From Blepharisma japonicum (taxonomy: Eukaryota; Ciliophora; Heterotrichea; Heterotrichida; Blepharismidae): 64,000 nucleotides of DNA. This document shows, one piece after another, positions 38,296-61,345 of the stretch (position 1 is its first letter; the number at the start of each line of letters is the position of its first letter). Both the position numbers and the translations under genes were made by a program. The stretch is from contig CATKHK010000064.1 in NCBI GenBank assembly GCA_949751835.1, positions 124,001 through 188,000 of the forward strand, read 5' to 3'. The notes beneath the pieces were generated by a model. The model ran no database searches and was not told the origin of the DNA. It saw nothing but the letters and a program-made list of their open reading frames with translations.

Positions 38296-41200
38296 ATGAA
38301 TTTAATATTTTGTTTGAAGATTATACTAGCACTATCGATTTCTAATTTATCATGCAACGAGAATTGATGCCCTTCAGATTGAGTAATTTTAATTCAGAGA
38401 GGAGATGGATCTTGTGACTTAGAATGCATGGCATCTTATTGCAATTTTGATTCTTCTACTTCCTATTCTTCACCTTTTTCCTTCAAAGAATCTGATTGCT
38501 ATGAAAATTGCATTTACGACCGTGGATGCCCTGAAGCATTTTTGGGTGATTCTATATGCAATTCTGAATGCAACAATTTAGAGTGTGGATTTGATTTAGG
38601 AGATTGTGGATATTGCGCGCAAGGATGTAATTATAATTTAGGCTATGATTATATGTTGGGAACTCACTGCTATAAAGAATGCAATAATTCAACTTGCTAC
38701 TATGGTGTTGGAATATGTAAAGAGTGTAATACGGGGTGCACCTCAGGGATACTCGGAAATAATAAGTGTGATTCTGCATGCAGAACAGCCAGCTGTAATT
38801 ATGATTTCGGAGATTGCTCTACTTCTTATTGCTCTGATAGTTGCTTTTTATGAATGATTGATGATGGAATCTGCCAACAAGAGTGCCATAACGAAAATTG
38901 CAATTGAGATGGCACTGATTGCGATTGTTCGCCAGGCTGCACAGAGGATTTATTAAAAAATTCTGAGTGTGATTCTGTATGCAATAACTCTGCATGCCTG
39001 TTTGACAATATGCTTTGCGGATACTGCGCGAGTCTGTGCTATAAAGATATGATTGGAAATGGATTTTGCAATCAAGAATGCTACAACAAGGCCTGCAATT
39101 GAGACGTAAAAGATTGTCAATGTGCAGAGACCTGCTATCATACTGAATGAGGCAAATGCTCTGAGGGCTGCATGGTACCTCAATGCTCATATGATACATA
39201 TAGCTCCGATTCATCACAAAGATGTACTAATGAGGAAGAGATTCTGCTATATGCCCATATGCAATTAATTAATAACGACTTAAATACAGTTCCAAGCCTA
39301 AATCATTGCAAGAAAGACACGAAGTGCAATACTACCAGCTTGCTAGATCCATCAGTTTGCTTGACTGAATGTGATAATGAATACTGCGCTTATTCTTGAA
39401 TAAACTGTGACCCAGAGAAGAGCTATCAGTGCTCTGACTCCAATTGCTTGAAATGCTATAGCAAATATCCTGGAGGGTGCTTTCAGTGTGATTATTCAAA
39501 AACTCATCAGTTTTTTGGTTACTGTTTAGAAGACTGTCCTTCTGGATATACTTCTCTTAATCTTTTCGATAAGCTTAATATGTGTATACCTGCTGAAGAT
39601 AAATCAAGCATGGGGTCTCCTGTTGAGTATTATGTGACTTCGATACAGACTGATGATGAAGTTGGAGGCATTGGGACACGTGAAAAACCCTTTCAATCTT
39701 TAGCGCTTGCTTTAGCAACAATAAACACCAAGGATTCAATTGTATACCTTTTGAATGATGGAGTCCATTATCTCACTCAACTCAATCAGAGTTATCCTAT
39801 ATACGTCACAACAGAAGATCCTACAAAGCCATTTAATTCCCAGCTCCAACGAGAAATATTAACAATTACAACTCTTAATAATGACTATGCATATCTAAAA
39901 CCAAAAGTCGATTGATCCATACTTACAATAGCAATGAATAATACCAGCTATCTTGATATAAGCAATGTAATTTTTGATGGGAATGAATGAGTTCACGGAG
40001 AGAATGACTGCCTAGATAATGCATGCTCTTATTGTCCTACTGTAACCTTGCAGTACGATGGAACTTACAAAGATGACCGAAATAACCCAATCTCAGATTT
40101 CACAAATTCAACCTATTGTAGCGATTTTCATAGCTGAAATTTATTTGAAATTACTCCTGGGGCACAGCTATTTTTAGAAAATGTAGCATTTGTCAATTGA
40201 AGACTGGAAGAGGCTTCACTAATTTCTAATATTGGAGGAGACCTCATTTTTACTAATGTCACATTTGATAATATTAGAACAGCTCCCAATCGAGAATCAT
40301 CTGTTATAATTTATGGGGATTGCGGGAGCAAGTATTATGACTGTGGAGATTTGGTGATTGATGGAGGCAAAGTGTCAAGGCTTAATAACGGGTTTGAGTA
40401 TTCCAATGATCATGTTTTCAGAGGATTTTTGCTGGCTTATAGGATAAGAAATATTGAATTGCATGGTATTGAGTTCACTGAAAATGCAGTATATGCTCCA
40501 GAAACCAATGTTAGTATATCTTCGCTGATTTACTTAGAAATTTTTAGACAAATTGACATTAAAAACTGCAACTTTACTTATAACTATGCGAAAAATGGGC
40601 TAATCTATGCCACTCCAACAAGTTTATTATTAAGGTCAGATGTAAATTCAAACAATGAAATAGAGGATTATTTGATAAATCATATATCTATCAAGAATAG
40701 TATCTTTAAAAACAATTATGCAGTATCAGTAGGCATTCTATCAGTGCGCTATCAAATTGAATTGCAAAATATATACTTTGACACAGTTAATATAGAGAAT
40801 AACGCAGTCGAAAGCGGCCCTATTATTTTTATTAATAATACAATAATAAGAGACTCGTATATTCATGGCGTGACATCTATCGTCACTACATCTAATGGCA
40901 AAAGATTGTCTGCATATCAAAAATACCGGACATTCCTTTGAGCACACGTCAACTTCATTAACAATTTTTCAGGGAGTTCTGGGATGTTTGACATAACCAA
41001 GCTTGTCAACATGCGTTTTGATAATCTCACAATGAATTCAAATGGAAGCTCTGATTTAAAAGCTGAAGATGCTAATACTATTCTTTTCAGCTATTGAAGT
41101 AATGATAGTAACATATACTTAAAACAATATATTCCTACAAGCACTTTTGATTGCAGCTCATTAGCTTACCTTGGCACTGCTACAAATATCAGCATAATCA

Positions 41201-44200
41201 ATTCTCATTTAGAAAATAATTACTGCAAGGCTTCACTTCCTACAATTTACATATATTCTACCAATATTATATTTATAAATGCAACAATATTTGATGGCAA
41301 CTATGGATCATCGACTGACTTACCTACTAATTTACTAATTGATGGAGGAAATGATACTTCAATTGATTATTCAGATTTTATAAACAATAGAAATAATGAA
41401 TTAGAATTAGGATATGGATCCATTTATATAAAGGGTCTTAATCATTCTGTTTCAATATCCAATACAAATTTTAAAAATAACTATGCAGTAAATGGAGCAA
41501 TTGCATTTAGTGGAAAATCAATAATATTTTTAAAATGTGATTTTGAAGCCAACCAATCCCCAACAGATGGAGCAGGTATGTATATTTGACAAGTTTATCA
41601 AGGCACAATGACTATTAGCATTAGCGAATGCACATTTACTCAAAATGAGGCAAACCTGGGATCTGGAGGAGCAATTTTTCTAAAGAATGCTGGAGTATCC
41701 TCTAATCTTATATCCTTCTCCGTTATAGATTCTACCTTTACTAAAAACAATGCAAATTATGGATCGGGACTATATATTTCCAATAGTGTAAAGTTGTATG
41801 GATATGCAAAAATCACGCTTTGTAAATTTACTGAGAACTATGTTCATAACTCAGGAGTGGTAGCTGTTTTGTTTAAAGCTGGAATTTTAGAAATGTCTCA
41901 ATGCACTTTTAGTTTCAATGTTGGGAGATTAGGCTCTGCAATTTATGCAGAGCATGCTGATGATTCAGTTTTAGCTGCTTCAAAAGTTCTTATTGATAGC
42001 TCTAATTTTAGAGAAAATAAAGGGAAGGCTGTGATTTTCCTATCAAACTCAGATGTCTTTTCTTATATTAAAACAAGCTATTGCAACTTCACTTCAAATA
42101 GTGGAGCAGCCATCCATTTAGATTATGATCAGTGATTTGACCAAAATTCAACCTTTGAACTGAATATAGGAGAAGAAGGAGGAGGATTGAAAATGTTGGA
42201 TAGCTCCTCAGCAAGCTGTGAAAATACTGCATTCATTGAAAACATATCCAGCGGCAATGGAGGAGGGGTATCATCAGGCTCAAAGTCACAATTCAGCTGT
42301 GTTTCTTGCTATTTTATGAGCAATCAGGCAAATTATTCTGGAGGTGCCATATACAATGAACAGAGCTCGATTCTTAATATATCCTATACAGTTTTTCATA
42401 AAAATCAATGTGGTGACAAAGGGTCAGCCATTTATTTGTTGGGCTCAACATCGCCAACTTCAAATATCTCTCACTGTGGCTTTATAGAAAACTACTCAAG
42501 CAATCAAGCTGCAATTGCTTTGCTGGATTCCTCGATCAGCATTGGTTTCTCTGCCTTTTCCCGCAATCTTGCGAATTCAATCACTCCTGGGATTCTTTTG
42601 ACTTTGTCCAATGCAACAATATATTCCTCTACTTTTTTCAACCAAACTGGTCAACAAGGAAGCTTCATTTATGCTACAACACAAAGTTCGGCTGATATTT
42701 ATAATTCTACCTTTGAAAATGGTACAAGTTCTAGCTCAGCCGGAGCAATTTTTTCGATCTCAAGCACTGTTTTAATCAATAAGAGCAAGTTCCAAAATAA
42801 CTCTGCAAGTGGTGGCGGAGGAGGAGTAATTTTATCATATTCCAGTAGCGTCTTACAAGTAAATGATAGCTCATTTGTGAACTCTTACTGCACAGATAAA
42901 GGAGGGATCATAACTGCATATGAAGGAGATTTGACAATAGAAAACTGTGATTGCGAAAACTATAAGGATGGAGCAATTGCCGCAGATAAAATGCACTCAG
43001 TGTACCTTAAAAACTCAACATTCTATAAGGGAGAAGGCACTCTTGGAGGAGCCTTATTTTGCACATCCTGCAGCATCGTAGAAATTTCTGATTCTTCATT
43101 TGTTGAAAATCATGCATCTACTGGAGGAGCTTTATATTTATACACTACTGGTGAGAATAAAATTTCAAAACCATATATTATAATGAAATCTATATTCACA
43201 AAAAATAAATCAGCATTGGGCGGCGGGATTTATACCGATAATATAAGTCTAAATGTATCATTATCTACATTCAGCCAGAATAGAGCAGAATCAGATACTT
43301 CTGTCACAAGCTCAATTCCTACGTCGGGAAACGGAGGAGCAATAGATATGGCTTGCTCAGATTTGACAAGTTGTGTATTTAACATAACAAGTTGTAATTT
43401 CACTGAAAACGTTGCTACTTCAAATGGTGGGGCAATAAATTGGGAAGACTGCATGCCTTTTTCAGAGGGCAATTGATTCTCGAGCAACGAAGCACAATAT
43501 GCACCAGAAATTGCATCATATGCAGTGCAACTTATAGCTCTGGATAAAGATGGCAATGCTGCTGATTCAAATAGAGTTTTAAGTGATATAGCTCTTAAAG
43601 ACGTAGCATCAGGGCAAATAGTAGTTCAAAGTCTAATTTTGGCTCTAGTTGATTATTATAAAAATAAGATCACAACCGATAATATAAGTACTGCAGAACT
43701 ATTGACTGAAAAATCAACTACAATAGCCCTTTCTGGTACAACCAAAGTTACAGCTTCGAAAGGAGTATTCTATTTCTCTGAATTTATTGTGTCTTCAGAG
43801 CCAGGATCAGAAGTTTCTATCAAAGTTTCTACAAATGGTATTGACGAGTCCAACACAAAAAAGCTCTCTCCAGATATCGAGTTTGTAACAAGTCTTGAGA
43901 TTAATATCGCATTAAGAGAATGTGAAATAGGGGAGGCAACTGTAGGAGTGACTTGCAAAGTGTGTGAAGCAAATTATTATAGCTTAAATCCGAATAATAC
44001 CCAATGTTTGCCTTGCCCTTCCTCAGCAATTTGTTATGGAAATTATACAATGGTCCCAGAATCAGGACACTGAAGATCAAATAATATGTCAACCAAATTC
44101 TGGGAATGCCCATTGAGCTCAGCTTGTATTGGCTCTCCATCACCTCCTAATATTTCATTAACGGGGTTGTGTGATATTGGATACGAAGGCAATATGTGCC

Positions 44201-45675
44201 AAGGGTGTTCAGCAGGTTATTCACGTGTAGGAAAAAATTCATGTGGGAAATGTCCTGATGATGTAGCAAATTCTTTTCGAGTAATAGGAATGTTTATCCT
44301 TGTTGTCATTGTAGCAGGAATTATGGTTAGAGAAACTCGAAAGAGTGCATACGTGCCCAAATCTATGCAATCAATATATATAAAAATTTTTGTTAATTAT
44401 TTGCAATTGGTAATGCTAATGAGTACATTTGATTTATCATGACCAAGTATTGTACTTGAAATTTTTGCAGCACAAAATAATGCTGGGTCAGTTAGCGATC
44501 AAATTTTTTCTTTTGATTGTTTCCTAGATTCAGGAAATGGGCAAAGTGATATCTATTTTAAAAAGTTGATAATTATGGCAGCTGTGCCAATTTTTATTGG
44601 ATTTTGTTCATTATTATTTTGAGGAATACTAGCCTGATATAGGCATGATAGGAGCTCTTTTAATAACGATTTAATATCGACAATAGTGATTTTATTGTTC
44701 CTTTTCCACCCAAATTTAGTCAAAACCATGTTTTCAGTATTCAGCTGTAGAGAAATCGACAACGGAGAATATTGGCTTGTTGATAATTTAAATATAAGAT
44801 GCTGGGATCAAAGACACATTTTTTACTCTATCCTTGTAGTTGTGCCTGCAATTATAATTTGGGGCATAGGAATCCCTACCGTTTCTTTATTCTTTTTATA
44901 TAAAAGCCGAAGGCAACTGGATTCTATTAGTGTTAGGCTCCGATTTGGATTTTTATTTAATGGATATAAATTAAGAAGCTACTACTGGGAATTCATTATA
45001 CTATATCGGAAGATCCTTATTGTCTGCTGTTCAGTGTTCTTGGCAAATTTTTCTACAAATATTCAAGCCCTTACAGTGATGGCTTTAATACTTTTCTGCA
45101 TCTATATCCATAATAAAGCAAAACCTTACAATGGCGAAATTCTGAATAAAATGGAAGCTAGATCGCTATTAGTTGCTGGAACAACAATTTATTGTGGCCT
45201 TTACTATCTAACAAATGATTTAGACCCTCCTTCAAAGCTATTATTTTTTTTTATTATCTTAGGAGTCAACATATACTTTCTCTACTACTGGCTAAATAAG
45301 ATGTTTGGGGTTGGCTTAGAAATTCTGGGCCAGCTAATCCCATATTTTAGAAGGAAATGCTCAAAAAAAGTGATGGATGGATTTGACGACAGACTCTTTG
45401 GAGACTCAGAATTGAGGCATGTTCGAATTAGAGAGGGCGAAAAAATATTTTCTATTGTTCCTGGAGAAGCTATCCTACCTAGTCCTGCCGTTGAGCCTGA
45501 ATTGATAGATTTACTTAATATGAATATAAAAGAGTTATTTTTGCAAAAAGCTAGAGACAACATTGAAGAATCAAATAAAAGAAAAGTGTCATTTTATAAT
45601 GATGAAATACAGCAAGATGCAGGAAATATATCAGAATCTGACACAACTACTAGGGAAACTAAATTAAATTCTTAA
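38296..45675 (+). CDS. Giant surface protein: LNR repeats, Pmp-like beta-helix, C-terminal multi-span membrane module
   Basis: A 2,459-residue protein in one frame with many TGA codons read as Trp and no intron. Order of parts: signal peptide (1-20, FCLKIILALSISNLS); Cys-rich repeats of Notch/LNR type at about 20-300 (CNSECNNLECGFDLGDC and similar, at least seven); a further Cys-rich piece; a right-handed beta-helix at about 440-1730. Its rungs carry FxxN and GGA(I/L/V) motifs (FTQNEANLGSGGAIF, FMSNQANYSGGAIY, FVENHASTGGALY), the pattern of chlamydial polymorphic membrane proteins. Then a short Cys-rich stalk (CKVCEANYYSLNPNNTQCLP) and about eight membrane helices at 1990-2330, ending in a cytosolic tail. 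The last module resembles that of the receptor at 54216. Likely an adhesin or sensor; ligand unknown. Confidence 0.85.
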
Positions 45676-45822
45676 AATTATGGCATAATTTACTATATAC
45701 TCTAGAAGCTTATTAAAATTCCAAATATATTTATTAAGCTTCACTATTTTATCACAGAGGGATTAAAAATAATGTTATTAATATTAGCCGAAGCCATGAG
45801 TATTGGGAATTCAGCTTGGATT

Positions 45823-48798
45823 CTAGCATTTACTTTTGATAGATAAATTAGATCTTGATGTAAGTAGCTTCTTTGTTTCCAATCTATGAAGCTTATGCAT
45901 AGCTGTCAAACCCAAGTTGTCCTTTGCTTTTTCCGAACTTTGGTCTAATTTCAATTTATTGCTGCTCTTCAAATAATATAAAGCAAAGGCCTCTTCCATT
46001 GTCCGGGATTCCTTCACGCATCCTGAAAAATGTTCTGGAAATAGCAAAAGGACACAATTCCTGATGGCTTCCATAGGCTTACTGATTGGTGCTATAATAG
46101 AAAATTCTTCTTTATCCTTTCTAAAACTTCCCAAAAGCACAATACCTCCCGTTCTGAGATCAATCATGCTTCCACGGATAAAGTATTTGATTTGGGAGTT
46201 CTTTATCATCCTCATCATATGGTCTTCGCTAACATCCCCAAACCCGAGCTTGCTGGCATTTAAACTTATCAGTTCCTCACTTGCCTCTTTATATAGATCC
46301 TCGATAAAGACATCTTTATTAAGCATTGCAGCTGGTATGTGAGCTGCAAATACCATCGTCAGCGCCGTTGCTGTCGAGGTATTGATTTTATAAGTTGGCA
46401 ATAAATGCTGCACGCCCACAATGTTCCCAATCATCAGTTCTTGGTCAATTCATGACGCCGTTTCATGAACTCTCCCATTAAAAATCAAGTAAGCTCCGTC
46501 TGAAGGATCGCCCTCTTTGAAGAGTAATTGGTCAGGCTGATAATGCCGCTCTGTTATCATTGGTAAAAGTAACTCAATGTCAGCTTCAGTAGCATTCCTG
46601 AACCGATTTTTGAGGATATCCTTTACCGAAGGAACAGTTGGGTTTTTCTGGAACGTGAGCTGCTTCATATTGTTATCAATTGCATCTATCAAGTGCTCGA
46701 ATTCGATTTCCTTGATTACTCCTTGGTGGTAAATCTTGTTAATAAGTTTTCGCTGAGAAATCAATAAGGCGTGAGAAGCCATACTTGACGTGACCTCAGC
46801 TACAACTTCAGGGTATGAATCAGTGATGTTATCCCTGACAAATTCCTTGCAGAGCTCAATTTGATCGTGAGCTTCTTCCATGACATCTCTGAAAATTAAT
46901 TCGTCAATGTCGATTTCCATGGTATCCATTAACTCTTCAGCCTCAGTATGTGCTGAAATAAAAGTGCTAGCAACATCATAAGTGAGAATGACACGATCAT
47001 ACAACAAATTTTTGAAAATACGTCCTATAATGGGAAGGCTGGCTAAATACATGTAAATGTTCATTAAGCGCTTGTTGTATAGCTCTTTTTGCAGCAGTTC
47101 CCAGTCAGCCATTTTTTGAGATTCGATGTCAAGTACTCTGTTACATGATTCTATTAAGACCAATGAAGCTACGCCAGAGCACTGTCCAGACTCAAATTCA
47201 TGCCAATAAATTCCTTTTAAAGTTGTATAGAATCTCCTCCTAGTTTCATTAACAAGCTCTGAAGGTGATAGCCTAAACTTAGCCATATACCGAGATAGCA
47301 GTTCTTCAGGCGTATCATTGTGATGCTTTCTGAGAATTTTTGAACCAACTTGGGTGTTTTCCATAATCTGGACAAGCAAATTTTTGGGCCCTGAAAGTTC
47401 CATGACTTTTTCCCATCTAACAAGATTAAACTGTTTATCGTTTCTCATACTTTCTACCTTTTTAGCCGTATGCTGCAATATAGCTGTAGTTACACCTACA
47501 AGCATATTCTCTTCAACTTCGCTCAGTGTTTCCATACCGAAAGTCTTCACTGCAAATTTCATAGCAAAGCTGTCCAATACAATACTTAGTCCTGCTATTC
47601 CGACAGTAAAGAACAGCAGAAGATCTTTGAACGTGTTATTCAAATCAGCTTCATTGTAAACTATCAATGCTAAAGCAGTAGCTATAACTCCTTTTAGTCC
47701 TGCAAGGGTCATCACAACTGTTTCTTTTCAATTAATCCCATATCCAAATCGCTTCAACAAAGGATAATGAATGACAATAACAAGACCTCTCACGAGGTGC
47801 AGAAAAATGAATAAAGTGAATAGCACCACTACATCTTTAAACTCAAGCGATGTTTGTTTAATAAAAAAGAAACCCAAAAGCATTCCTGCAATAATGAACA
47901 CAACTGATTCCACTGAAGTTCCAGCAATGTTTCAAAAATTATGCAGGGGCTTTTCCACCATTGGGCTTATGAGTGTCTTTCCGTATGCACTCATATAGAG
48001 CCCAAAAGTGACAACAGAAATTCCGCCTGAGGCTCCAATACCAGTAGCATCAGCTGTGTAGAATAGCAAATAGGTCGTTACTAATGTTAATAGGGTTTCT
48101 TGTATCTGATCATTCACCATTCGTTTTATTATTCACCCCATCACTATTGCAAAAGTGATGCCCAATATAAACCCAACCCCTGACAAGTCAAAAAACTCGA
48201 GAATGCTTGTTTGGACATCTGCCTTTCCAAGGGTGCTATCAAGCATGACATTGAAAAGGACTAGAATTGTTGCTTCATTTAAAAGGGTTTCACCCTCAAT
48301 AAGAGTCTTAAACCGATTGTCAGCATGCATTTCTTTAAGCTGAGCGACCACAGCAACATGGTCTGTAGCGCTTAAAATTACGCCTAGTAGTAAAGCTTCG
48401 TCCCAGTAAAAATCATACTCTAGAATAACTTTTATGACAATTGCTGTCAAAATTGCAGATAGGACAACTGCAGATGTGGCCATAGGAACAATTTGCCAGA
48501 TTTCTCTTTTGAATGTATATCAGTCGGTTGAAAATGCTGCGTCAAATATTAATGCTGGGAGAATTCCTAGCATAACTAGCTCAGGGCTCAATGTATCCAC
48601 TTGGCTAACTGCCCCTTGAAGGCCTGGAAAGACTTCACCAATTAGTCTGAAAAGGATACCAACCAGCAATAGAATGGGGGAGACTGGAATTTTGAAATGT
48701 TTTTTGAGCTCGTAGCTTATGATAGTAAGGAAGAGTGCAATAAATGTAAAAAGGACAATGTCAGGCGCTTGAGAGTCGCTTGATTCAGACTCAGACAT
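45823..48798 (-). CDS. Na+/H+ exchanger (CPA1/SLC9C-SOS1-like) with cyclic nucleotide-binding domain
   Basis: A 991-residue protein. Residues 1-430 form the exchanger domain with about twelve helices: IPVSPILLLVGILFRLIGE, LGILPALIFDAAFSTDW, VILSATDHVAVVAQLKEM and GETLLNEATILVLFN, later TLAGLKGVIATALAL. The family ion-binding pair Asn-Asp in LLND appears here as Asn174-Glu175. A long helical cytosolic region (430-740) follows. Residues about 740-840 are a cyclic nucleotide-binding fold (RHYQPDQLLFKEGDPSDGAY, FNGRVHE), and 150 further residues complete the tail. I find no voltage-sensor segment between exchanger and nucleotide domain, so the layout is closer to plant SOS1 than to sperm sNHE. 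Several TGA codons are Trp. The start at 48798 (MSESESS) is chosen over an upstream ATG, which would add 29 hydrophobic residues. Confidence 0.88.
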
Positions 48799-48970
48799 TA
48801 ACTTAAATCTTATATAATTTAAAAAGAAGCGCAGTATTATAAGGTATTTTAAAGTTAGTAAATGATTCTTGCAGATGCAATTCAAAAATCATAAATATTT
48901 CTTATATCTTTTAGTTCCAAAAGCAAATATTAATGAATATAATATAAAAAAATATAAAAAATTAATTATA

Positions 48971-50179
48971 CTAAACTACAGGGGTGATCCTGTGTCTTAA
49001 TCTACTTTTGGCTGCTCTTTTGAAACCTTTTAGAGCAATCATAATAGTTGTAAGGTTATCTGTGGATCTTCTTTCAAATGCAAGCTGCAAAATTGACTCT
49101 ACAGCTGCGCCGCATCTATGATGAATGTTTTCGCTTTCCCAGCAATCGGCTCTCCATGCCTGAGTTGCTATTTCTTTGTTGGTAAGTTGGTCGAAGATCC
49201 CATCTGATCCCAGGATGATGAACTCACAGTCATCTGTGATTTTGAATGATTTTATCTCAGGCTCAGATATGATTACGTTTGAAATCCCACCCATGCTGGG
49301 CATCTTTGCTTCTATATCTCCAAAGGTTCTTGCTACTGAAAGTCTTCCAGGGTTCACCCTGACTGGGCCTAGTTTATTATATCCAAATGGAGTCTGATAT
49401 AAAGACCCGCCAGCTTCTATTATTCGGCACTTTTCGATTTCATCCGAAGGCTTGTGGTCGCGTGACAAAGCTTTGACTTTGCTTCCTCTTTCACAGCATA
49501 AAATAGCCCGAGAGTCGCCGACGTTGGCTATATAGCATGTGTCTCCTACAAAAAGTGCAAAAATACAGCAGCTTCCTGATACATCTATCACTTCTCCTTG
49601 TGCACGTTTCATAAACTCTTGTTCAGCTTTAGCACAAGCTTTTTCAATAGCCAGCTTAGGATTGCTGGGGAAGCTCTGTTCTTGGATGATGTACTGATGC
49701 AAGTGATTTCTTAAGAATTCAGCACATGATGATCCTCCATGGCCATCAAAAATCCCGAAATATGAGCACTTTGGAAAAGACTTTTCTGAGTTAGATTGCT
49801 TTTTCAGCATATTAATGCTGATGCAAGCTCTGTCTTCGTTGTAGTTTCTGACCAGCCCAGGGTGGGTGATTACTGCATAAGCTTTTGTAACCCCGTAAGA
49901 ATTAACTGAGAATTTAGCACGATTTTCTTGAGGGATGAAGAAAGGCTTAATTCCTGCTTCTTTGAATGTATTTTTGTTGTTGTGAGCCTTTGGGGAAAGA
50001 AGCTGATTGTCTATGAAATTAAGGCTCGCTGTTGGAGTCAGCATCGCTGAATTCCTTTGAGAGATGAAACTGCTGGGAAGAGTCAGTAACCGAGTGGTGC
50101 TTCTTGTGGGGACACCCTGCTCTGGTAGCTTCTTCAAGCTTTTAGAATGTCTTAGTTCTGGTAATACAAGAGTGCTCAT
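48971..50179 (-). CDS. PP2C-family (PPM) Ser/Thr phosphatase
   Basis: A 402-residue metal-dependent phosphatase. After about 100 polar residues the catalytic domain begins with KAYAVITHPGLVRNYNEDRA and YFGIFDGHGGSSCAEFL, whose Asp residues bind the metal pair. Then come CYIANVGDSRAILC, ALSRDHKPSDEIEKCRI, LSVARTFGDIEAK, FIILGSDGIFDQLTN and STDNLTTIMIAL, all in family order and with the metal-binding Asp residues of DGIFD and DNLT kept. The N-terminal extension is Ser/Thr-rich without a myristoylation signal. The frame is unbroken, without TGA or intron. The tail KRAAKSRLRHRI is basic. Substrate unknown. Confidence 0.93.
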   Translation of the reverse strand: MSTLVLPELRHSKSLKKLPEQGVPTRSTTRLLTLPSSFISQRNSAMLTPTASLNFIDNQLLSPKAHNNKNTFKEAGIKPFFIPQENRAKFSVNSYGVTKAYAVITHPGLVRNYNEDRACISINMLKKQSNSEKSFPKCSYFGIFDGHGGSSCAEFLRNHLHQYIIQEQSFPSNPKLAIEKACAKAEQEFMKRAQGEVIDVSGSCCIFALFVGDTCYIANVGDSRAILCCERGSKVKALSRDHKPSDEIEKCRIIEAGGSLYQTPFGYNKLGPVRVNPGRLSVARTFGDIEAKMPSMGGISNVIISEPEIKSFKITDDCEFIILGSDGIFDQLTNKEIATQAWRADCWESENIHHRCGAAVESILQLAFERRSTDNLTTIMIALKGFKRAAKSRLRHRITPVV

Positions 50180-50909
50180 AATGGATCTTTGATTTTATGA
50201 ACTCTATTTTTAAGCCACGATATTTAATGACGAAATCTGTTTGAAATCTGAATAGCCAGGAGATTTGAAGAATAAGATTTAAAAATTTGAACTAAGTAAA
50301 TTTATTTATTTGCAAAACAAAATCTTTGGTTTTTCTTAATTAATATATAAAAGACTCAATGATGTGTCTCAAAAAAAAGTTTAATCTATTTTGGTTTTGC
50401 ACCGACGATGAAAAATAAGTTTTAAACTGCATTTTTTATTTTAGTCACATCTTTTTAGCTGATGAGCTGGCAAATTTGTACATGTTGATATAATAAAAAT
50501 TTTCTAACTCATAAATATCTTATTACTGTTTTAAAGCTTATGAAAGTTTTTTGTTTATTAAGAAACTTAAGTTTTGATAACAAATAAATATAATAATTAT
50601 TTGAAATATAATCACAAATTTTTAAATCAAAAATTTTGCTATCAAGGCCATAAGATGTGCATAAAAATTTTATTCTTAATCTCTGTATCTATCTTGCTAT
50701 TGTCTAAATAAATATTTGCAAACCATAATTTATCTGAAATATAAAGCTTCGATATGAGAGCTAATTTATATATCTAATAGCAGTATAAACTTCTATATGA
50801 ATAAACTTACAATCTCCCCCAGTTTTCATTGCAAACATAAAAGACTCGAATTGTCTGGGGTTTAAAAATATGTAAGAAATAGAATTTTATAAATTGGTGA
50901 ATAAAATAA
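50180..50909. other. Intergenic, no gene seen
   Basis: Strongly AT-rich divergent spacer between the PP2C gene and the first Cys-rich gene, presumably containing both promoters. Confidence 0.5.
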
Positions 50910-52046
50910 ATGGTTGGTTTTCTAAAACTTTTCCAGCTCCTTTCCTTGCTTTCTTCTGCCTATAGTCTCACGCAATGCGCAAAATATACCTGCAAAACCT
51001 CTGACCAGGACTTCCTTCCAGAAACTTGTGCCTACCAAGACAATATTACTGATACTTATTATGCTCGAAAATGTTCAGATTCAAGTTATGACTGCGTATC
51101 AGATGCATCATCATCTTATCAATTCAATTACACTTGTAAAGTGCCCACTCCGCTGGCTGTCAACAGCTTACCAGGTGAATGGTGCAAAACATTGTCAGAT
51201 TGCCTCTATTCCACTGCTTGTGAAGATGGAATATGTATAGGTACTCCCAAAGGTGAACCTTGCACATATAATGGCCAGTGTGAGCCAGGAACATTTTGTA
51301 GCAGCAATAACGTTTGCACAGCCCAGATAGAGATAGGAAAAAAGGGCTGTCTTTATGATTTTCAGTGTGTAAATAATGGAGCTTGTAATATCACTTCACA
51401 AGCTAATCCATCGATGAATACGTGCTATAAATTTAGGTCATTTAGTGTTCACGATCCAGTTGGACACTGCAATACAGGGTTTAGCACTTTGTGTCCTTAT
51501 ATTTACTGTGCAGAAAAGGAGACAAACATGTTTTACTGCACTGATTTGCTCTCAACAGCAAATGGCACTGGAACTCAATGTGATATGAATAGCAGAGGTG
51601 ACTGCGATTCTAATGAAGACAGTTTCTTTAGTCCTGCATACTCCGTAGAGGGAGATTGCACCTGTGGATTAAATTCTCAGGGAACCTCATACTGTTCAGC
51701 TCTTCCAGGAGATATTCCATACAAAAAATATACAGCCCAGCTTTCAAAGTGGGTTACAAGTGAGGCAATTTTTTTATGCAATACACTTAATAGATTTGAC
51801 GATAATTGCATCAAGACTCATTGGGATAAAAACAATTATAATAACTATGTGTATTATGAGATGCAAATGAAAGGATATCAATGGTATATTAATGCTCAAG
51901 ATTGTGTAATGGAGACATTTGGCAAAAATTATTTACAAGCTCAATCAGCTGCAACTGGAGGGGGAGGTGATGGTGATGGAGGCAATGATTCTGCAGTTTC
52001 CTTTGTCAGCTTCTCAATGTTGACTCTTGCTTTGATAGCACAATAG
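50910..52046 (+). CDS. Secreted Cys-rich protein, probably GPI-anchored (paralogue A)
   Basis: A 378-residue protein. Signal peptide at 1-19 (FLKLFQLLSLLSSAYS). Residues 20-340 contain about 34 Cys residues in patterns such as CAKYTCKTSDQ, CLYSTACEDGICIGTPKGEP, CQPG-like CEPGTFCSSNN, and GDCTCGLNSQG; some segments resemble EGF or Dickkopf-type Cys-knots but no named domain fits securely. Near the end a Gly/Asp-rich spacer (GGGGDGDGGND) leads to a hydrophobic tail (VSFVSFSMLTLALIA) that ends the protein, which suggests GPI anchoring. It needs no TGA. A paralogue of the same layout lies at 60236. The conserved IKTHWDKNNYNNYVYYEMQM block near the C-terminus is shared by both. Confidence 0.8.
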   Translation: MVGFLKLFQLLSLLSSAYSLTQCAKYTCKTSDQDFLPETCAYQDNITDTYYARKCSDSSYDCVSDASSSYQFNYTCKVPTPLAVNSLPGEWCKTLSDCLYSTACEDGICIGTPKGEPCTYNGQCEPGTFCSSNNVCTAQIEIGKKGCLYDFQCVNNGACNITSQANPSMNTCYKFRSFSVHDPVGHCNTGFSTLCPYIYCAEKETNMFYCTDLLSTANGTGTQCDMNSRGDCDSNEDSFFSPAYSVEGDCTCGLNSQGTSYCSALPGDIPYKKYTAQLSKWVTSEAIFLCNTLNRFDDNCIKTHWDKNNYNNYVYYEMQMKGYQWYINAQDCVMETFGKNYLQAQSAATGGGGDGDGGNDSAVSFVSFSMLTLALIAQ

Positions 52047-52390
52047 TTAAGATTAATATCTTTCTTTTTAAGTTTTGAGATACCTCTTTAAAAAAACCGA
52101 AATTTACCATATCTCATGCCTCAGTATTGATTCCCATTCAGCATCTTTAGTTTTCAATAAAATTTATTTACAGATTATCTAGATTCAGACGTATATCTCA
52201 TCGTTTGTTTACCTTTTAATTTAAATTGGATTGGATACTCAAATCAGATAGCTTGGCTTAAGTCTATAAGGAATTTTACAAATACAAAAACTAAGCCAGC
52301 TTATGTTAAATAATAGTTTATATTTATTAGTTAAAACAGTCCATCATTATTGAACGAAAAATTCGCAATTAAAAATGCATATAAATCTTA
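52047..52390. other. Intergenic, no gene seen
   Basis: AT-rich spacer between two plus-strand genes; presumably the promoter of the tubulin gene. Confidence 0.5.
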
Positions 52391-53731
52391 ATGAGAGAAA
52401 TCATCAGCATTCAATTTGGCCAATGCGGAAACATGATTGGATCAGCATTTTGGGGAGAAATAGCCGAAGATCACAGTATAGACGTAGAAGGGAATTATTA
52501 TGGCAGCTCAGACAAAGAACTCGCGAAAATAGACAGCTATTTTAGCACGTCTGAAACGAAATTCTTTCCAAGGACAATTATGATCGATTTAGAGCCTCAA
52601 ACTTTAGATGAAATGCGCTTTTCAGCTCTCGCGAAAATTTATAGAGCTGATAAATTTATTTCTGGACATTCTGGCACAGGAAATAACTGGGCTAAAGGAT
52701 ATTATACATTGGGCCCAGAAATCAAGGACTTGATTATGGAAACTGTACGAAAGTCTGCGGAAGAATGTGAGCGCCTTGAAGGGTTCCAAATCTGCCACTC
52801 TCTGGGAGGAGGAACTGGATCAGGGCTTGGCTCCTTAGTTATAAATTCGGTTAGGGAAGAATTTCCAGATAAAATCCTAGAAACATTTTCAGTTATTCCT
52901 TCATCCAAAATTTCAGATATAGCAGTTGAATCATATAACGCAACTTTTTCTTTCAATAAATTAGTCGAATATGCTGATTGCTGCATAATGCTAGATAACG
53001 AAGCCCTATATAAAATCTGCCAAGAAAATCTTGGCTTGGAAGCTCCTACTTATTCAGAATTAAACAGCATCACTGGTTCTGCTATGGCTGGAGTTACATC
53101 ATCTATAAGATTCCCTTCCACCCTGCACTCCAACTGAAGGAAAGTTTGCATGAATTTAATCCCATTCCCTCGGCTTCATTTTTTCACGATTTCTCATATG
53201 CCGCTTTATAAACAACAAGAAAAGCCTGAAAACTCAGAATGGAAGATCTTGGATTTCTTCCAAAAGATGATAAATCCGAATAATGTCTTAATATCAACTG
53301 GGCATGATCTCTGCTCTCAAAGAATTTACTCAGCGGCTGCGATATTTAGAGGAAATTACACTGATAAGGAATTGAATGACGCACTTGATGAAATCCGCAA
53401 TGAAAAAGCTTCATGGTTTGTAGAATGAATCCCTGACAATCTCCTATGCGGTACTTGCCAAGTACCTCCCAAGTGATCACCAACTAGTGTTTCTTCAATT
53501 ATGAGTGGTAGCTGTGTGAAAGATAATTTTATTAAATTAAGCGAGAAATTCACTGAACTCTATAGAAAAAAGGCTTATACGCACTGGTATACTGAAGAAG
53601 GAATGGATTTAATGGAATTTACAGAAGCTGAAAGCAACATGAATGACCTTGCAAGCGAATATACTCCCTGCTGCTGTTGTTACGAAGAAGAATATGGCGA
53701 AGAATATGATGAAGGAGAGGGTGGAGGTTAA
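52391..53731 (+). CDS. Divergent beta-tubulin
   Basis: A 446-residue tubulin closest to the beta type. MREI begins it (the beta-tubulin autoregulation tetrapeptide), followed by [28 protein letters not shown] (GTP phosphate loop), [19 protein letters not shown] (Trp from TGA) and [20 protein letters not shown], all beta hallmarks. The M-loop region ([18 protein letters not shown]) and the segment up to [10 protein letters not shown] are strongly diverged from ordinary beta-tubulin, so protofilament contacts should differ. The C-terminal tail is unusual: [22 protein letters not shown] has four adjacent Cys, then acidic residues and a triple Gly end. Three TGA codons are Trp. No intron. Probably a specialised isotype rather than the main one; not a pseudogene, since all GTP-binding motifs are intact. 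Confidence 0.9.
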
Positions 53732-54215
53732 AGTTCTGGATCCAAGACATTTTCTAAAATATATTTTTTAAATCTCATTTCTGATTGTAAAATTGATTCT
53801 TTTTAAAATTCACAAGGATGAGAAAAGAATTTAGGATATCTAGTGTAAATTAATTATATTTTATCAAAATAGACTACATTTTCAACACTTAGACGGTAAA
53901 TTCAAGCGAAACATTGAGTAATTATCCTGCTTCTTGGCCAAAATTTGCTGCTATCCACAATAAAATTGCCCTTGCTTTCATTGGAGCTTAACTGGATTAA
54001 GAGCTTATTGCTTCCAGAGTCCTTTGTCATAGCTCTCTCTTTGATGTTTTGGTTTATTTTACCAGCGCACTGTTGAGTTTCCAACTGGAATCTAAAGTTA
54101 ATACTCATGCCAAAAATAGCAGAAAATCAATTCTAATATATATAGCATTGAAGGGCAATATCCAGACTGAAATACTAATGAGCACTATCTTCTATTATAA
54201 AAAATTAAAATTATT
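53732..54215. other. Intergenic region containing a partial duplicate of the receptor tail
   Basis: Convergent spacer between tubulin and receptor genes. Most of it from 53900 to 54185 is a decayed copy of the receptor's C-terminal tail; see the pseudogene entry. Confidence 0.55.
53902..54185 (-). pseudogene. Decayed duplicate of receptor C-terminal tail
   Basis: The frame at 53902-54108 reads FRFQLETQQCAGKINQNIKE and LLIQLSSNESK, which align with FRFQLGKSIRADEINQSIRE and ILMHISSDRS at the end of the adjacent receptor. Further upstream the DNA still aligns with the receptor gene (SMLI-like block) but not in one frame. It sits immediately downstream of the intact gene in the same orientation, so a partial tandem duplication is the simplest reading. 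Confidence 0.6.
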
Positions 54216-57200
54216 CTACTTCTTTATTAAATTTTTTTCTTTATATACCTGGCTTCTATCAGAACTAATGTGCATTAAAATGCCACTACTAATATTGGAT
54301 AATTCAAATTTCCTCTCTCTTATACTTTGATTAATTTCATCAGCACGTATTGACTTTCCTAGTTGGAATCTAAATAGCAATCCAATGTCGGGATTTTTAT
54401 CAGAAATTAGCATTGAGGGATAATGTCGAGTCTGAATATATAGACCTGTTAATATTAAAATCACCCAACCCGTAAAATCAGCTGTTAGTCATAATGGCAC
54501 TAATTGATAAGGTGATACAGAATAAATAGAAGATAAAGATACACCCCATATCACAGCTAAGTAAGAGATAATAAGTCATAAATTCACTCGACCATAATTG
54601 TAAGGCCTTAGCTTAATGCAAAACATAATAAAAATTAAAACTAGTAGGATATAAATAAGTCCATGCAAACTCTCATAATAAACTTTTAATGTTTTACTAA
54701 GAATAATTGCACTTACTTGCAAAATTCCTTTAGCCATCAGAAATAAAGGCTTAGTTTTTATGTTTCCATTACTCAAAATATCTGCAAGTGGTCTAAAATA
54801 TATAGCTGAAGGTAAATAAATAATTAATGAAATAATAGACAATGTCGCTCATATGATATGTTTATCTTGTCAGCAAAATGTAGAACAATCTTGATGCACA
54901 AATGTTTGTTTAAGATTTGGACCTATAGATTCGTAGCACGCAAAAGAACTCAATAGCACAGAAACAAGAGGTAAAAATCCCAAGTTTCCTATTAATGTAA
55001 GGGAAATTTTTGACATTCCTCGAATAGTTCAACTAATGGAGTTTTCAGATTTTTCGAATAAGTTAAACTTGATTACGATGCTAAAAAATACCCATGCAGC
55101 AACAATTATTACAGCACAATTCACATATATTCAGAGCCTTTCCCCTTTATTAAGCCATCCTATATTTATTGAAACCCAAGTTGACACTTTGCTTGAAAAA
55201 ATATCATAGCTGAAGTCTGGGCCAAGAGAAAGGAATTGCAGAAAATCGACCAATACGGCCATCATAGCTATATAATCTTCGAATTGAATCTTTGCTATGT
55301 GCATTGGTTCTATATCTTCTCTATTCCAGTGCCTTTTCCAAACAATAAAAGTTATAAAGACTGTTACAATAAAAATGAAAGCAGATAATGAATAGAAAAT
55401 TGCTGCTCCATTGGTAGAAAATCTGATTTTTTTCTTATCAAAAGGGCATCCATCATTGTAGGAAATCTTATCATCAGGAAGAGTTGTTTTATTATTGTAC
55501 CAAATAATACTATCGGAAAATGTAAATAGTTGCTCACTTCCAACGCTATAAGTCCCTGTGAGTGCTTCATAAATAGCTCCGGTTGTTTTATTTCATCTTA
55601 TATTGTAAATTCCAAGAGTTGCTGAATTTCGATTGTTGCTACCAGATTCAATTGAGACAGTGCCTGAACACCCCAAAAATTTTTGAAGTCTTAGATTTGT
55701 ATTCATTACAGAGTTGTCTTCATAGTCTTCCCCTTGAATTAATGTATATTTTAAGCCATTCATGATAAGCATTGCAGCATCAAAAGACAAGCATCTGAAA
55801 TCAGCAGTGGATAAATTATAGCAGTCTTTAATCTCTTTAAAAATTTCTTGTCCATATTCTCCGATTCATTCAGCTTCCATAATTACTATTGAACCATATA
55901 GCAGCTCCTTTAACTGTTGCCTAGCAACTTCAGTGCTCATATGATTCTGAGCAAATGCCACTCTATTAGTCACCAAAAAGATGCAATCCCCTTGCCTGCA
56001 GCCAGCTTCGTAAAAATCTACAATAACATCATATTCAGATGGTGGAGTGACATATAGCAATATAGGCCGAACTTTTAAGTCGATTATCTTCTTCATTCAA
56101 TCTTTTACCTCACTAAAAAGAGTATGGTTATAGTTCAGCATAAATCATCTGTCTTCTTTTTTGTTAGCAATATTAATTTTATAATCTTCAGCCCATTTGG
56201 CAATATAATTATGAACGTTAATGTTGTCTGTAGAATTTTCTAATATTAAAACTATATTCTTCCATCCAAAAACATTAATTAGAGTAGTAAGAACGCTAGT
56301 ATGGTATAAATCATGGCCAGCGATTCTCATGAATTGAGGGTACTCTTCTTTATTTTCTAACGCTTGAGGAGTTGCATAATAGGCAACAACTGGCATTGTA
56401 AGATTTAGCGTTTTCATCGAAGCAATATTACCAAGTAAAGTAGTTGGGACTGTTGATGTTATAAAAGCAATTCCAGGGTTGCTAACTAATTTAGAAAAGC
56501 AGTTTTTAGAAAAAGCAGGAACATAAACTTCTCCGCCACAATCAGTATGTGTAATTCTAATATCAAAACCATCAAGAAAGCGAGTTTCTTGGATATAAGA
56601 AAGCAAAGCATATCGTGAGCCTTGATTGAGCAAATATGATTGGATGCTATTTGGAAACCCAGGATTTGTCAAGCCATCCGCTATTCATATATTTATTGGT
56701 GTTGTTGGAGAATTCGGCATAGAAGATGAATTCCCAATAAAAATTGTATCATTATTTAAAATAATTGCTCCATCAATTATTGCTCCGACACTTCTTTTTT
56801 CGTTATTATATGAGTTCATAATGGTAAAACTTGGGATTGGATGGTGGTTTATTGTATTTTGCTCCAAATAATTTCTTAAGTCTAAATTATTATTGCTATA
56901 TGGAAAGCTAAGTATCAGGTCAATTAATTTGACGCAAGATAAAGCTTCATAGCTATAATAATCTGTGGCATTTTCAAGCCCTAATTCGATATACTCCAGA
57001 ATTCCATTTTCATTTTCATTTGCTTCCCATCAGCTTCTGCTTCCCAAAATTATTCCAAGTCCCTTCTCCATCATTTTTTTCTTCTTCAAGCTTTTAAGTA
57101 ATTTCGAGGCGCTTTCACCTTGATTTAAAATAACAATATTTCTGATTCCAGTAGATTTAATTACTTTACCAATAAAAATATCTGAAAATGTTTGGGTTTC

Positions 57201-57704
57201 TTTGTTACCGAAAAAAAATGGTTCTCACTTTTTTAATAAGAACTGATCCTTGAAATCCTTGAAGTAGTCAATCGTATTTTCATCAAAAATAATAATAAAT
57301 TTTTCTCAATTCAAAAAGCTGATTAAACTTGATAAAGCCATCAAATTATCCAAATTTGAAGGATGAGTAAAATACTGCCATTGTGAATATGATTTAATAA
57401 AATTTTCAGTTGAAATATGGATTATTTTATTTTTTTGGGTAAATTCTTTTATAATTTCTGATATTGAATTGCTTTCAGAAAGATCAAGCATAATATTTGA
57501 CATTTTACTAATGTTTTCAATTTTCAAATCCGTATTTACAAGTATTTCATTTATGTCAACTTGGAAGAGAAATTTTTGTTTTATTGCTGATGATATGCTT
57601 TCTTTTAAATTCATTTCGGTGCTGTTACTATAAACGATCTCAACAAGCAGTTGGCAAAAGCCGTGCAATAAAATTGTCAGAATGATATGAGTTTGTGTCC
57701 ACAT
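54216..57704 (-). CDS. Receptor with two periplasmic-binding-protein-like domains and eight membrane helices
   Basis: A 1,162-residue protein in one frame with many TGA codons read as Trp. Signal peptide at 1-22. Residues about 25-330 form a first ANF-receptor/periplasmic-binding fold (FIIIFDEN, IRNIVILNQ, LGIILGSRSWW); residues about 340-720 a second (FDIRITHTDCGGEVYV, GIAFITST, FMRIAGHDLYHTSVL, FGWKNIVLILEN). This type binds small ligands in glutamate and natriuretic-peptide receptors. Membrane helices occur at about 765-1090, with CSTFCWQDKHIIW and IKLRPYN. The module resembles the one at the end of the giant surface protein, not an ionotropic or class C GPCR core. The tail (ADEINQSIRERKFELSN) is cytosolic. 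The ligand is unknown. Decayed copies of its C-terminal part occur at 53902 and 59520. Confidence 0.82.
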
Positions 57705-60235: not shown

Positions 60236-61345
60236 ATGGCTCACTCATTTCATCTCCTTGTGGCTATTTCTCTTTCAATTTATGTTTGCTGTGCCCAAAG
60301 TAAGATAACATGCAATAAATTCACTTGTAAAACCCCACAGCAAATATTTTTGCCAGATACATGTGCTTTCCATGATAATCGCACCAATACTTACTATGCA
60401 AGAAAGTGTGAGAATGGATTAGCATGCTACTCTGCTTGAAATAATGGCAGCTACCAGCTCAATTATACTTGCCAAACACCTTCTCTGCCTAGACCAGACA
60501 GCTACCCAGGAGAATGGTGCAATTCCTATTCAGACTGCATTTCATCTTTCTCCACAGCTTGTGTGAATGGGATTTGTATAGGCACTCCTCTTGGTGGTCA
60601 ATGCCAGTTCAATAGTCAATGTCAACCAGGAACATATTGCAAAAACAAGATCTGTACTCCGCAACTAAAAATTGGCGAGTTTGGCTGCTGAAGTAGCTTT
60701 GATTGTGTAAATAACGCAGCTTGCAATCAGGTTTCTTATGATCAACTAGAGCTAAACCAATGCTTAGCTGTTGGGTCTCTTAAAGTTCATGATGAAGTTG
60801 GAGAATGCTACTCCGGATTTAATACTCTTTGTCCCCATGTTTATTGTTCGACAGACCGGACTACCAATAAAGCATATTGTTCAGAACTATTCAAAACACT
60901 ATGGGGTCCAGGAGCAAAATGTGATTTAGAATTAAAATATTCCTGCTATTCCAACAATGATACTTTTTTTAATCCTCCATATTCTGTAGAGGGAAGCTGC
61001 CTTTGTGGATTAAATAAATATGGGTATTCCTTTTGTGGATTATTGCCTGGAGATGCACCGTATCAATCATGGACTCAGATTTTGCAGCAATGGCAAAGAA
61101 GTAAGGAGATATTGAAATGCAACACTATGAGAAGAAATGAGGATAATTGTGTCAAGACTTATTGGAGCAGCCAGAACTATAATGCATTTGTCTACTATTA
61201 TATGAATATGCAATTATATCCTATTACCTGGTGAGCCGAAGACTGTGTAATCGAAACTTTTCAAGAAAATTATTATGAGGCAAGAAAAGCATTCCAAGGA
61301 AATGGAGATAGCCAATCAATTAAAGTTGCTGCAGTAGGCGATTAA
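60236..61345 (+). CDS. Secreted Cys-rich protein (paralogue B, no anchor)
   Basis: A 369-residue protein collinear with the gene at 50910: signal peptide (HLLVAISLSIYVCCAQ), KFTCKTPQQIFLPDTCAFHD, YYARKCENGLACYSAW, CVNGICIGTPLGGQC, CQPGTYCKNKIC, VEGSCLCGLNKYG and NCVKTYWSSQNYNAFVYYYM. Cys positions are almost all conserved, so the fold should be the same. It differs in its end: the Gly/Asp spacer and hydrophobic tail of paralogue A are missing and the protein stops at SIKVAAVGD, so it is probably released rather than membrane-anchored. Three TGA codons (SAWNN, GCWSS, TWWAE) are Trp; paralogue A has none in frame. Confidence 0.82.

Follow-up and report, generated by a model that had tools for sequence, protein, structure and literature searches.

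Different sensor ectodomains on an apparently shared nine-helix membrane module, related to fungal TRP-like proteins, in hundreds of Blepharisma surface proteins

Can two surface proteins with unlike ectodomains carry the same membrane output domain? The question is raised by a 64,000 nucleotide stretch of the Blepharisma japonicum genome (contig CATKHK010000064.1, positions 124,001 to 188,000, hereafter the window), in which we analysed two proteins, a giant beta-helix surface protein (P0001, class A; 38296-45675, plus strand, 2459 amino acids) and a tandem Venus-flytrap receptor (P0002, class B; 54216-57704, minus strand, 1162 amino acids). The DNA follows the Blepharisma-type ciliate code, in which TGA encodes tryptophan, and both genes lie where a first-pass annotation had placed them, in frames that are open once their TGA codons (20 in P0001, 14 in P0002) are read in this way. 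That annotation held the N-terminal parts to be unrelated and the C-terminal ends to match in order, and both statements stand: one protein has LNR/Notch repeats plus a Chlamydia-PMP repeat match that stays below threshold, the other an ANF_receptor match, while both ends show a Cys...CW loop followed by KPYN or RPYN.

The class A protein opens with six LNR/Notch-type cysteine repeats (PF00066, Pfam E 3.4e-25 in six stretches; 38503-39225, plus strand, from residue 70, the end being approximate), followed by a repetitive, beta-helix-like (PMP-like) ectodomain (39643-43575, plus strand, limits approximate) recognised from the repeat pattern of the translation and from a Chlam_PMP match of 11.9 bits, below the Pfam cut-off of 20.6. 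Pfam profile matches across class A place a membrane-proximal Cys-rich domain resembling DUF7630 (PF24633) at 44098-44253 (plus strand); with E up to 10 allowed, it is matched by 25 of 26 class A members (best E 9.3e-8), P0001 itself scoring 16.3 bits, well short of the cut-off of 27. The membrane module occupies 44272-45294 (plus strand, residues 1993-2333). Between its segments 4 and 5 lies a Cys...Cys-Trp...His loop predicted to be outside (44746-44817, plus strand; C2151...C2169-W-D-Q-R-H2174), and between segments 7 and 8 a KPYN motif predicted to be cytosolic (45121-45132, plus strand, residues 2276-2279). C2151, C2169, W2170, H2174 and P2277 are invariant in all 27 aligned class A rows, and the motif's tyrosine is kept in 22 rows and replaced by phenylalanine in five.

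The class B protein matches PF01094 (ANF_receptor) as a whole at E 4.2e-29, in two stretches, a first Venus flytrap (matched part 57048-57473, minus strand, 31.5 bits) and a second (55599-56402, minus strand, 70.5 bits). These flytraps match solved class C receptors weakly (best E 0.061). For a second class B member, L079 (contig C133, about 16.7-20.4 kb), the flytraps match plant GLR3.4 (its best PDB match), GABA-B1 and the T1R taste receptors. The class B module spans 54435-55400 (minus strand, residues 769-1090). Its loop between segments 4 and 5, again predicted outside, has the form Cys...Cys-x3-Cys-Trp...His (54858-54938, minus strand; C923, C940, C944-W-Q-D-K-H949), the three cysteines being present in 60 of 60 rows, the tryptophan in 58 and the histidine in 54. 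RPYN, predicted cytosolic, lies between segments 7 and 8 (54597-54608, minus strand, residues 1033-1036; P in 53, Y in 51 and N in 58 of 60 rows), and a stretch just past the last helix is also conserved in class B (consensus FRFSLG..I.A.EINK). The CW motifs, first described as CW-x-DKH and CW-x-RH, keep that order; P0002 reads CWQDKH, as described, but P0001 reads CWDQRH, so that its motif is CW-x-x-RH.

Hydropathy, taken over 27 class A and 50 class B rows, gives nine hydrophobic segments in each protein in place of the eight helices originally counted, in an order identical between the classes, with the Cys...CW loop preceding segment 5 and the PY loop preceding segment 8. Lysine plus arginine density is 0.185 in the predicted inner and 0.065 in the predicted outer loops of class A, and 0.164 and 0.089 in class B, a charge bias fitting a topology with the N-terminus outside and the C-terminus inside. 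Conservation within both classes is strong in the Cys loop and at residues within segments 5-8, and a comparison of seven class A proteins shows the module to be better conserved than the adjoining ~280 ectodomain residues in 21 of 21 pairs. The module found no match in NCBIfam or among solved structures (best E 0.66), single-sequence structure models of the two modules are of very low confidence (mean pLDDT 44.7 and 44.9), too low for the two folds to be set side by side, and of 150 pattern matches of the class A profile in viral contigs none was confirmed as a relative.

Whether the two modules are homologous, or are instead nine-helix domains of separate origin with a few coincidental motifs in common, cannot be read from the pair alone, as the very low pairwise identity (BLASTP E 0.011, 26% over 149 amino acids) would suit convergence. 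The profile comparison called for by the first-pass annotation is more informative. The probability of an A-B match climbs as paralogues are added (24, 37, 62, then 85-92%), a rise that counts against convergence. An earlier, less diverse profile pair scored 43.8 and was exceeded by one of 200 hydropathy-preserving shuffles (51.0), a borderline result. The fuller family profiles score 51.6 (85.5%), against a maximum of 42.3 in 300 hydropathy-preserving column shuffles and of 37.0 in 200 coarser ones; alignments A4 and A3 give 92.0%, and omission of the window's own two proteins still gives 86.7%. Across 40 random half-sets the median is 81% (range 42-92%), and pooling A, C and D (the last two described below) against B gives 93.3% and a score of 61.7, where none of 300 shuffles went beyond 33.1. 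Single sequences are mixed but favourable. Against the A profile five class B tails reach 30-38, with nearly the same register in each, and eight membrane proteins used as negative controls (six encoded in the window and two from elsewhere in the genome, identified as transporter, glycosyltransferase etc. by reading their translations) reach 13-22. Taken singly, 61 class B rows, one of them a stray short frame (L025+2_1257, score 13.5), have a median of 28.5 against 16.4 for 183 shuffles; 53 exceed the shuffles' 95th percentile and 22 their maximum of 29.5, but 39 do not. The alignment takes in the class A PY dipeptide in 42 of the 61 rows and in all 42 sets it on the corresponding class B dipeptide, as do only 6 of the 183 shuffles. 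The same 61 rows served for class B in the fuller profiles, and among the 30 sequences of the class A set are two short frame pieces of L056. Convergence could also draw on the lack of a significant C-B match, yet against it stand the 0 of 300 shuffles that reach the fuller profiles, the steady register, and the segment number, order and charge bias common to A and B, and we regard it as very unlikely. The earlier claim that unrelated ectodomains sit on one membrane module is upheld by profile comparison, and A-B homology appears well supported for segments 4-8 only; for segments 1-3 the number and order agree, and just one single-sequence alignment (L082, 237 columns) extends towards them.

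The first-pass annotation knew of no described name for the module. The Pfam TRP family PF06011, which comprises fungal TRP-like proteins (Flc1-3, Schizosaccharomyces pombe Pkd2 and Aspergillus nidulans TrpR), is its catalogued relative, though P0001 and P0002 themselves miss that model, and the idea of a module with no such relative is rejected because PF06011 matches classes A and C. Class C, with a Cys-rich/DUF4215 ectodomain, and class D, with a laminin-G-like/Cys-rich one, are two further module-bearing sets, their ectodomains scanned in three members each. The three class C proteins scanned score 29.8 (L089), 31.6 (L090) and 27.6 bits (L091) against a PF06011 cut-off of 28.5. A genome search at E up to 10 gave 35 matches among 47 scored, eight of them above cut-off, seven in class C and one in class A (C60:188746, 31.4 bits). 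Assigned by eye on coordinates, 19 of the 35 places are class A, ten class C and three class D, leaving three (C69:247114, C57:34285 and C33:155827) unassigned. Of the 19 class A places, which include a fragment (C148) not counted among the fuller modules below, three reach E about 0.001 or better and the others 0.02 to about 3; hmmscan of 26 class A members reported no PF06011, and P0001 shows none up to E 1 for the whole protein or up to E 10 for the module. The three class D places stay below cut-off (C55, 22.9; C69:18332, 14.2; C191, 12.1 bits), and the class D proteins L096, L097 and L102 have no match up to E 0.1. For class B there is none in P0002, in 39 members or among the 35 genome places.

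Profiles of A and C match at 94.8% (E 5.2e-8) and of A and C+D at 90.9%, one class C sequence used alone as query finds the class A module C11:60754 at 30% identity and E 0.00115, and a single class D tail scores 24.5 (2.0%) against the A profile. C against B directly gives 1.7%, and C+D against B 9.8%, with a score of 31.1 equalled by the shuffle maximum of 31.1. By these comparisons A and C/D are related by sequence, class B joining the shared module, over segments 4-8, through profiles only.

The expectation of large gene families ending in this module was borne out. The class A profile has 91 matches in the genome, 74 of them fuller module places including the window's, the 17 short or broken ones being excluded from the co-occurrence count that follows. 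Class B has at least 203 places, again including the window's; the figure joins 110 from a first search, others judged new by eye and seven read from loci, and includes three under 1 kb and some broken copies. Modules of both classes lie largely in tandem arrays, and both class sizes are lower bounds. The modular receptor family envisaged by the first-pass annotation survives as a shared module under differing ectodomains, but not its freely swappable sensors. An LNR match lies 3-8.5 kb upstream of at least 64 of the 74 fuller class A modules (from the best 150 of 501 LNR candidates), and 92 of 106 ANF matches have a class B module within 400 bp downstream, the other 14 being without a listed one. 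Free swapping is not supported by these counts. Classes A and B keep steadily to their own ectodomains, so that each looks like the product of a single ancient fusion that later multiplied in tandem, and we read the whole as a few fusions rather than continual exchange.

How does this architecture compare with known systems? Like the fungal TRP-like proteins, these have an N-terminal ectodomain followed by many helices, with the class C membrane region scoring close to or above the Pfam cut-off and a single class A paralogue exceeding it. The lipid-binding ML/TRP_N domain that forms the N-terminus of fungal Flc and Pkd2 is not among the Pfam matches of P0001, P0002, L089-L091, L079 or L082, and, unlike the fungal family, the Blepharisma proteins have giant or flytrap ectodomains, exist in hundreds of copies and, in class B, escape the Pfam model. 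Two fungal studies describe a role for PF06011 proteins in Ca2+ homeostasis (PMC8618638, PMC9600462), and one also describes the Flc family in flavin transport (PMC9600462). Ionotropic glutamate receptors and plant GLRs resemble class B in having a flytrap sensor, here proposed to gate a cation path, but the class B output is the nine-segment module; P0002 has no Lig_chan pore, only ANF_receptor being found up to E 1. A giant beta-helix ectodomain before a multi-helix C-terminus, as in class A, recalls the protist beta-helix/PMP-like giant surface proteins that we take to be the PANTHER 'G protein-coupled receptor-related' group, for whose number our literature search found no paper. It is the present analysis that links such proteins with PF06011 and with the flytrap receptors. 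The same search, through titles and abstract openings with few subscription journals and hence weak evidence of absence, found no description of a flytrap receptor with a TRP-like module.

The class C GPCRs (mGluR, GABA-B, CaSR, T1R) likewise place a flytrap before a multi-helix domain, but class B has two flytraps in tandem and nine segments. The 7tm_3 domain (PF00003) is absent from P0002 and from 39 class B modules, and NCD3G is not among the Pfam matches of P0002. Three proteins of the genome match 7tm_3, one over cut-off. A six-frame PF00503 search, which ignored introns and could miss an intron-split gene, found no full G-alpha; its 28 matches among 38 scored all lie within profile positions 143-264, the GTPase core, and the sole frame to pass the cut-off carries three of these cores one after another. 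This argues against GPCR signalling, and with nine segments, no 7tm_3 and no full G-alpha found we reject class B as class C GPCRs. RGS domains are present (9 of 10 matches over cut-off) and, together with the 7tm_3 matches, indicate that some G-protein-like signalling may exist.

The best explanation, and the one we lean towards, makes these proteins surface receptors that share an ancient nine-helix module related to PF06011, to which different ectodomains were fused and in which they would control a cation (Ca2+) path; sensor-gated channel activity is our best guess for the module's members. LNR repeats and a beta-helix (A), tandem Venus flytraps (B), Cys-rich/DUF4215 (C) and laminin-G-like/Cys-rich domains (D) would each have been joined to the module long ago, and tandem duplication would then have enlarged each class. 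Between segments 4 and 5 the conserved Cys loop would lie outside and couple ectodomain to helices. In class B it would be moved when the flytraps close on a small ligand, probably an amino-acid-like one, and in class A by contact with, or pull on, the beta-helix; its movement would open the cation path or release a second messenger, and not by way of a G protein.

Could the module be shared but signal without conducting ions, class B acting through a G protein or other cytosolic partner in the manner of class C GPCRs? The resemblance of its flytraps, the RGS domains and the conserved post-helix stretch would suit such a partner, but nine segments, the missing 7tm_3 and the failure to find a full G-alpha make this unlikely, as does a survey of 27 ciliate species that reports no family C GPCR (PMC9960496). 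Decidedly unlikely, in our judgement, is a module serving mainly as anchor or transporter, with A, C and D as adhesins or surface coat and only class B as receptors. Beta-helix, LNR, laminin-G-like and Cys-rich ectodomains do resemble adhesins, and the Flc connection with flavin transport points the same way, but conservation of the Cys loop and segments 5-8 in A and B goes beyond an anchor's needs, and in the seven class A proteins compared the module outconserves its neighbouring ectodomain.

Within the receptor reading, a further step is tentative, and we would not yet expect it to hold in full: class B as a new class of ligand-gated Ca2+ channel, with flytraps on a TRP-like nine-helix pore, arisen independently of class C GPCRs and ionotropic glutamate receptors and, at 200 or more members, forming the ciliate's main chemoreceptor repertoire without heterotrimeric G proteins. 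Were it true, a third, unrelated type of output would have been placed, in very many proteins, behind the clamshell sensor that serves taste, GABA and glutamate receptors, and this in a lineage whose survey gave no class C GPCR (PMC9960496) and in a genome where our search turned up no full G-alpha; several anonymous giant protist surface proteins would also be tied to the fungal TRP-like family. Gamone 2 is a tryptophan-derived mating pheromone of Blepharisma whose receptor is, to our knowledge, not known. Class B might include it, and would provide a concrete candidate set both for this receptor and for ciliate sensing of amino-acid-like cues, raising the testable question of whether a flytrap ligand opens the TRP-like module. 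As to faster change of the class B ectodomain the result is mixed. Among 26 proteins the flytrap shows lower similarity than the module in 171 of 325 pairs, a share that rises to 30 of 32 when only pairs with module identity of at least 60% are counted.

The giant beta-helix protein P0001 (2459 aa; 38296-45675, + strand) and the tandem Venus-flytrap receptor P0002 (1162 aa; 57704-54216, - strand) are each encoded by a single open frame when TGA is read as Trp (20 and 14 codons, respectively), and both genes are interrupted under the standard code. Pfam identifies six LNR/Notch repeats in the P0001 ectodomain, with a long repetitive stretch matching Chlamydia PMP below threshold, and two ANF_receptor (Venus-flytrap) domains in P0002, while the membrane regions have no Pfam match at E up to 1. 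The two proteins represent class A (LNR and beta-helix ectodomain) and class B (tandem flytraps), and averaged hydropathy (27 rows for class A, 50 for class B) shows nine membrane segments in each class, not the eight helices originally claimed, in the same order, i.e. four segments, a Cys loop, segment 5, two more, a PY loop, and the last two. With the N-terminus set outside, Lys+Arg content is higher in inner than in outer loops, 0.185 versus 0.065 in class A (27 rows) and 0.164 versus 0.089 in class B (60 rows); the outer loop predicted to join segments 4 and 5 carries the conserved cysteines. The motifs noted in both membrane regions by the first-pass annotation are therefore real. Structure prediction, for which the input was the two window tails alone, gave models of very low confidence (mean pLDDT: class B, 44.7; class A, 44.9).

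BLASTP aligns P0001 and P0002 over 149 residues (E 0.011). Profile-profile comparison of the two membrane regions, the check that had been proposed for their relatedness, bears it out as sequence diversity grows: the A-B probability was 24.5% for profiles built from 8 sequences of class A and 30 of class B, 37.1% with 8 and 22 in the profile tool's own alignments, and 62%, 85.5% and then 92.0% as more diverse members were included. Hydropathy-preserving column shuffles beat the A-B score once in 200 at the 62% stage (51.0 versus 43.8) and never in 300 at the 85.5% stage (shuffle maximum 42.3 versus 51.6). Omission of the window's own proteins changed the probability little (86.7%), and 40 random half-sets gave a median of 81% (range 42-92%). 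Against the class A profile, eight unrelated multi-helix proteins scored 13-22, five class B tails chosen for diversity 30-38, and lone class C and class D tails (classes described below) 41 and 24.5. Class B rows compared singly had a median of 28.5 (n=61) versus 16.4 for shuffled sequences (n=183); 53 of the 61 exceeded the shuffles' 95th percentile (22.1) and only 22 their maximum (29.5). The class A PY motif lay within the alignment for 42 of these rows and in all 42 was set on the corresponding class B dipeptide (P, A or S, then Y, F or L), a placement seen in 6 of 183 shuffles. We conclude from these sequence comparisons that the two modules share homologous segments 4-8. Beyond agreement in number and order, segments 1-3 have a single pointer to homology, the alignment of one sequence taken singly, L082, over 237 columns reaching towards them.

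The first-pass annotation had no described name for the module, but a catalogued relative exists, the Pfam TRP family (PF06011). A genome search with PF06011 at E up to 10 gave 35 matches among 47 scored candidates, eight passing the cut-off. By coordinates, 19 are class A places, of which one (C60:188746, 31.4 bits) is over the cut-off, two more reach E ~0.001 or better, and the remainder are weak; hmmscan with its usual filters assigned PF06011 to none of 26 class A members. The other matches (10 class C, three class D, three unassigned) led us to the two further classes. Class C lies in tandem arrays on contigs C139, C110, C15 and others, and the three members scanned have Cys-rich repeats and DUF4215 followed by a membrane part scoring 29.8, 31.6 and 27.6 bits to PF06011 (cut-off 28.5). 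A genome search with one class C query scored 94 of 100 candidates and gave 51 matches; class D places and one class A module are among the weaker of these. On contigs including C69 and C191 lies class D, in which all three members scanned carry laminin-G-like domains; a class C profile run against the frames of seven loci picks up these three members at E 4.8e-21 to 4.4e-19. Profile probabilities were 94.8% for A versus C, 90.9% for A versus C+D, and 93.3% for A+C+D versus B (score 61.7; shuffle maximum 33.1). Neither C (1.7%) nor C+D (9.8%) matched B significantly, so class B joins the family via class A. A further Cys-rich domain adjoining the class A membrane region resembles DUF7630; with E up to 10 allowed, the match is seen in 25 of 26 members (strongest E 9.3e-8). 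The module belongs to a catalogued family, as a distant branch of it, and is therefore not a new kind of domain.

Class A has 91 genome matches, 74 of them fuller modules. An LNR match lies 3-8.5 kb upstream of 64 of these 74, a class A module lies downstream of 124 of 148 LNR matches, and class A neighbours on one strand form 44 pairs with a median spacing of 8.2 kb. Three class B searches (110 of 275, 108 of 260 and 107 of 291 candidates scored) gave at least 196 distinct places, and seven more read individually bring the lower bound to at least 203; a class B module follows within 400 bp of 92 of 106 ANF matches (102 of 267 candidates scored). This co-occurrence indicates that classes A and B largely retain their own ectodomains. 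The earlier proposal of a modular receptor family with swappable sensors thus stands as to large families built on one module, but not as to swapping, and we read the history as a few old fusions with much tandem duplication, not ongoing exchange of ectodomains.

Small ligands make flytrap domains close around them. In the class B member L079 these domains match plant GLR3.4 (E 4.7e-17), GABA-B1 and T1R taste receptors, and the similarity of the window's flytraps to solved class C receptors is weak (best E 0.061). PMC8618638 and PMC9600462 give the fungal relatives a role in Ca2+ homeostasis. Our best-supported guess is that the module is a putative sensor-gated cation path, in which ligand on the sensor would lead to ion flow through the module. 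PMC9960496, a survey of 27 ciliate species, reports family C GPCRs in none of them; here their place may be taken by flytraps mounted on a module that is not a GPCR. As far as our search reached, in a literature partly available as text, the flytrap plus TRP-like architecture, the link joining classes A-D and the class numbers are new. A G-alpha search of the genome gave 28 matches, all inside profile positions 143-264, taken for the core common to small GTPases; a full G-alpha was not found in this search, which an intron-split gene could escape. RGS domains are present (nine of 10 matches over the cut-off). Three proteins match 7tm_3 (C5:680687, C25:371904 and C81:97858), the first at 38 bits and with no flytrap seen, the others below cut-off; those at C25 and C81 are each followed directly downstream, on the same strand, by an RGS match.

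The assembly comprises 45.19 Mb in 224 contigs, and A+T in the window is ~67%. The telomere repeat is (CCCTAACA): exact copies of (CCCTAACA)3 number 77 forward and 91 reverse in the assembly, its backward control has none, and copies among the matches listed lie, where placeable, at or near contig ends. TGA as Trp, A+T and telomere repeat agree with Blepharisma stoltei (41 Mbp, 66% A+T), as given in PMC9942806, and we accordingly assign the DNA to a Blepharisma.

Frame-broken copies occur at five loci (L056, L098-L101) and at several class C-query places on C139 and C110. Blepharisma has tiny introns of 15-16 bp, and some of the breaks may be such introns; other copies, with many stops, look like pseudogenes. 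As read from translations, a putative hybrid histidine kinase with a receiver domain (35426-37561, + strand) lies immediately upstream of the beta-helix gene, and two similar Cys-rich, probably secreted proteins of 378 and 369 aa (50910-52046 and 60236-61345, both + strand) flank the flytrap receptor together with the gene for an apparently divergent tubulin-like protein of 446 aa with an acidic end (52391-53731, + strand).
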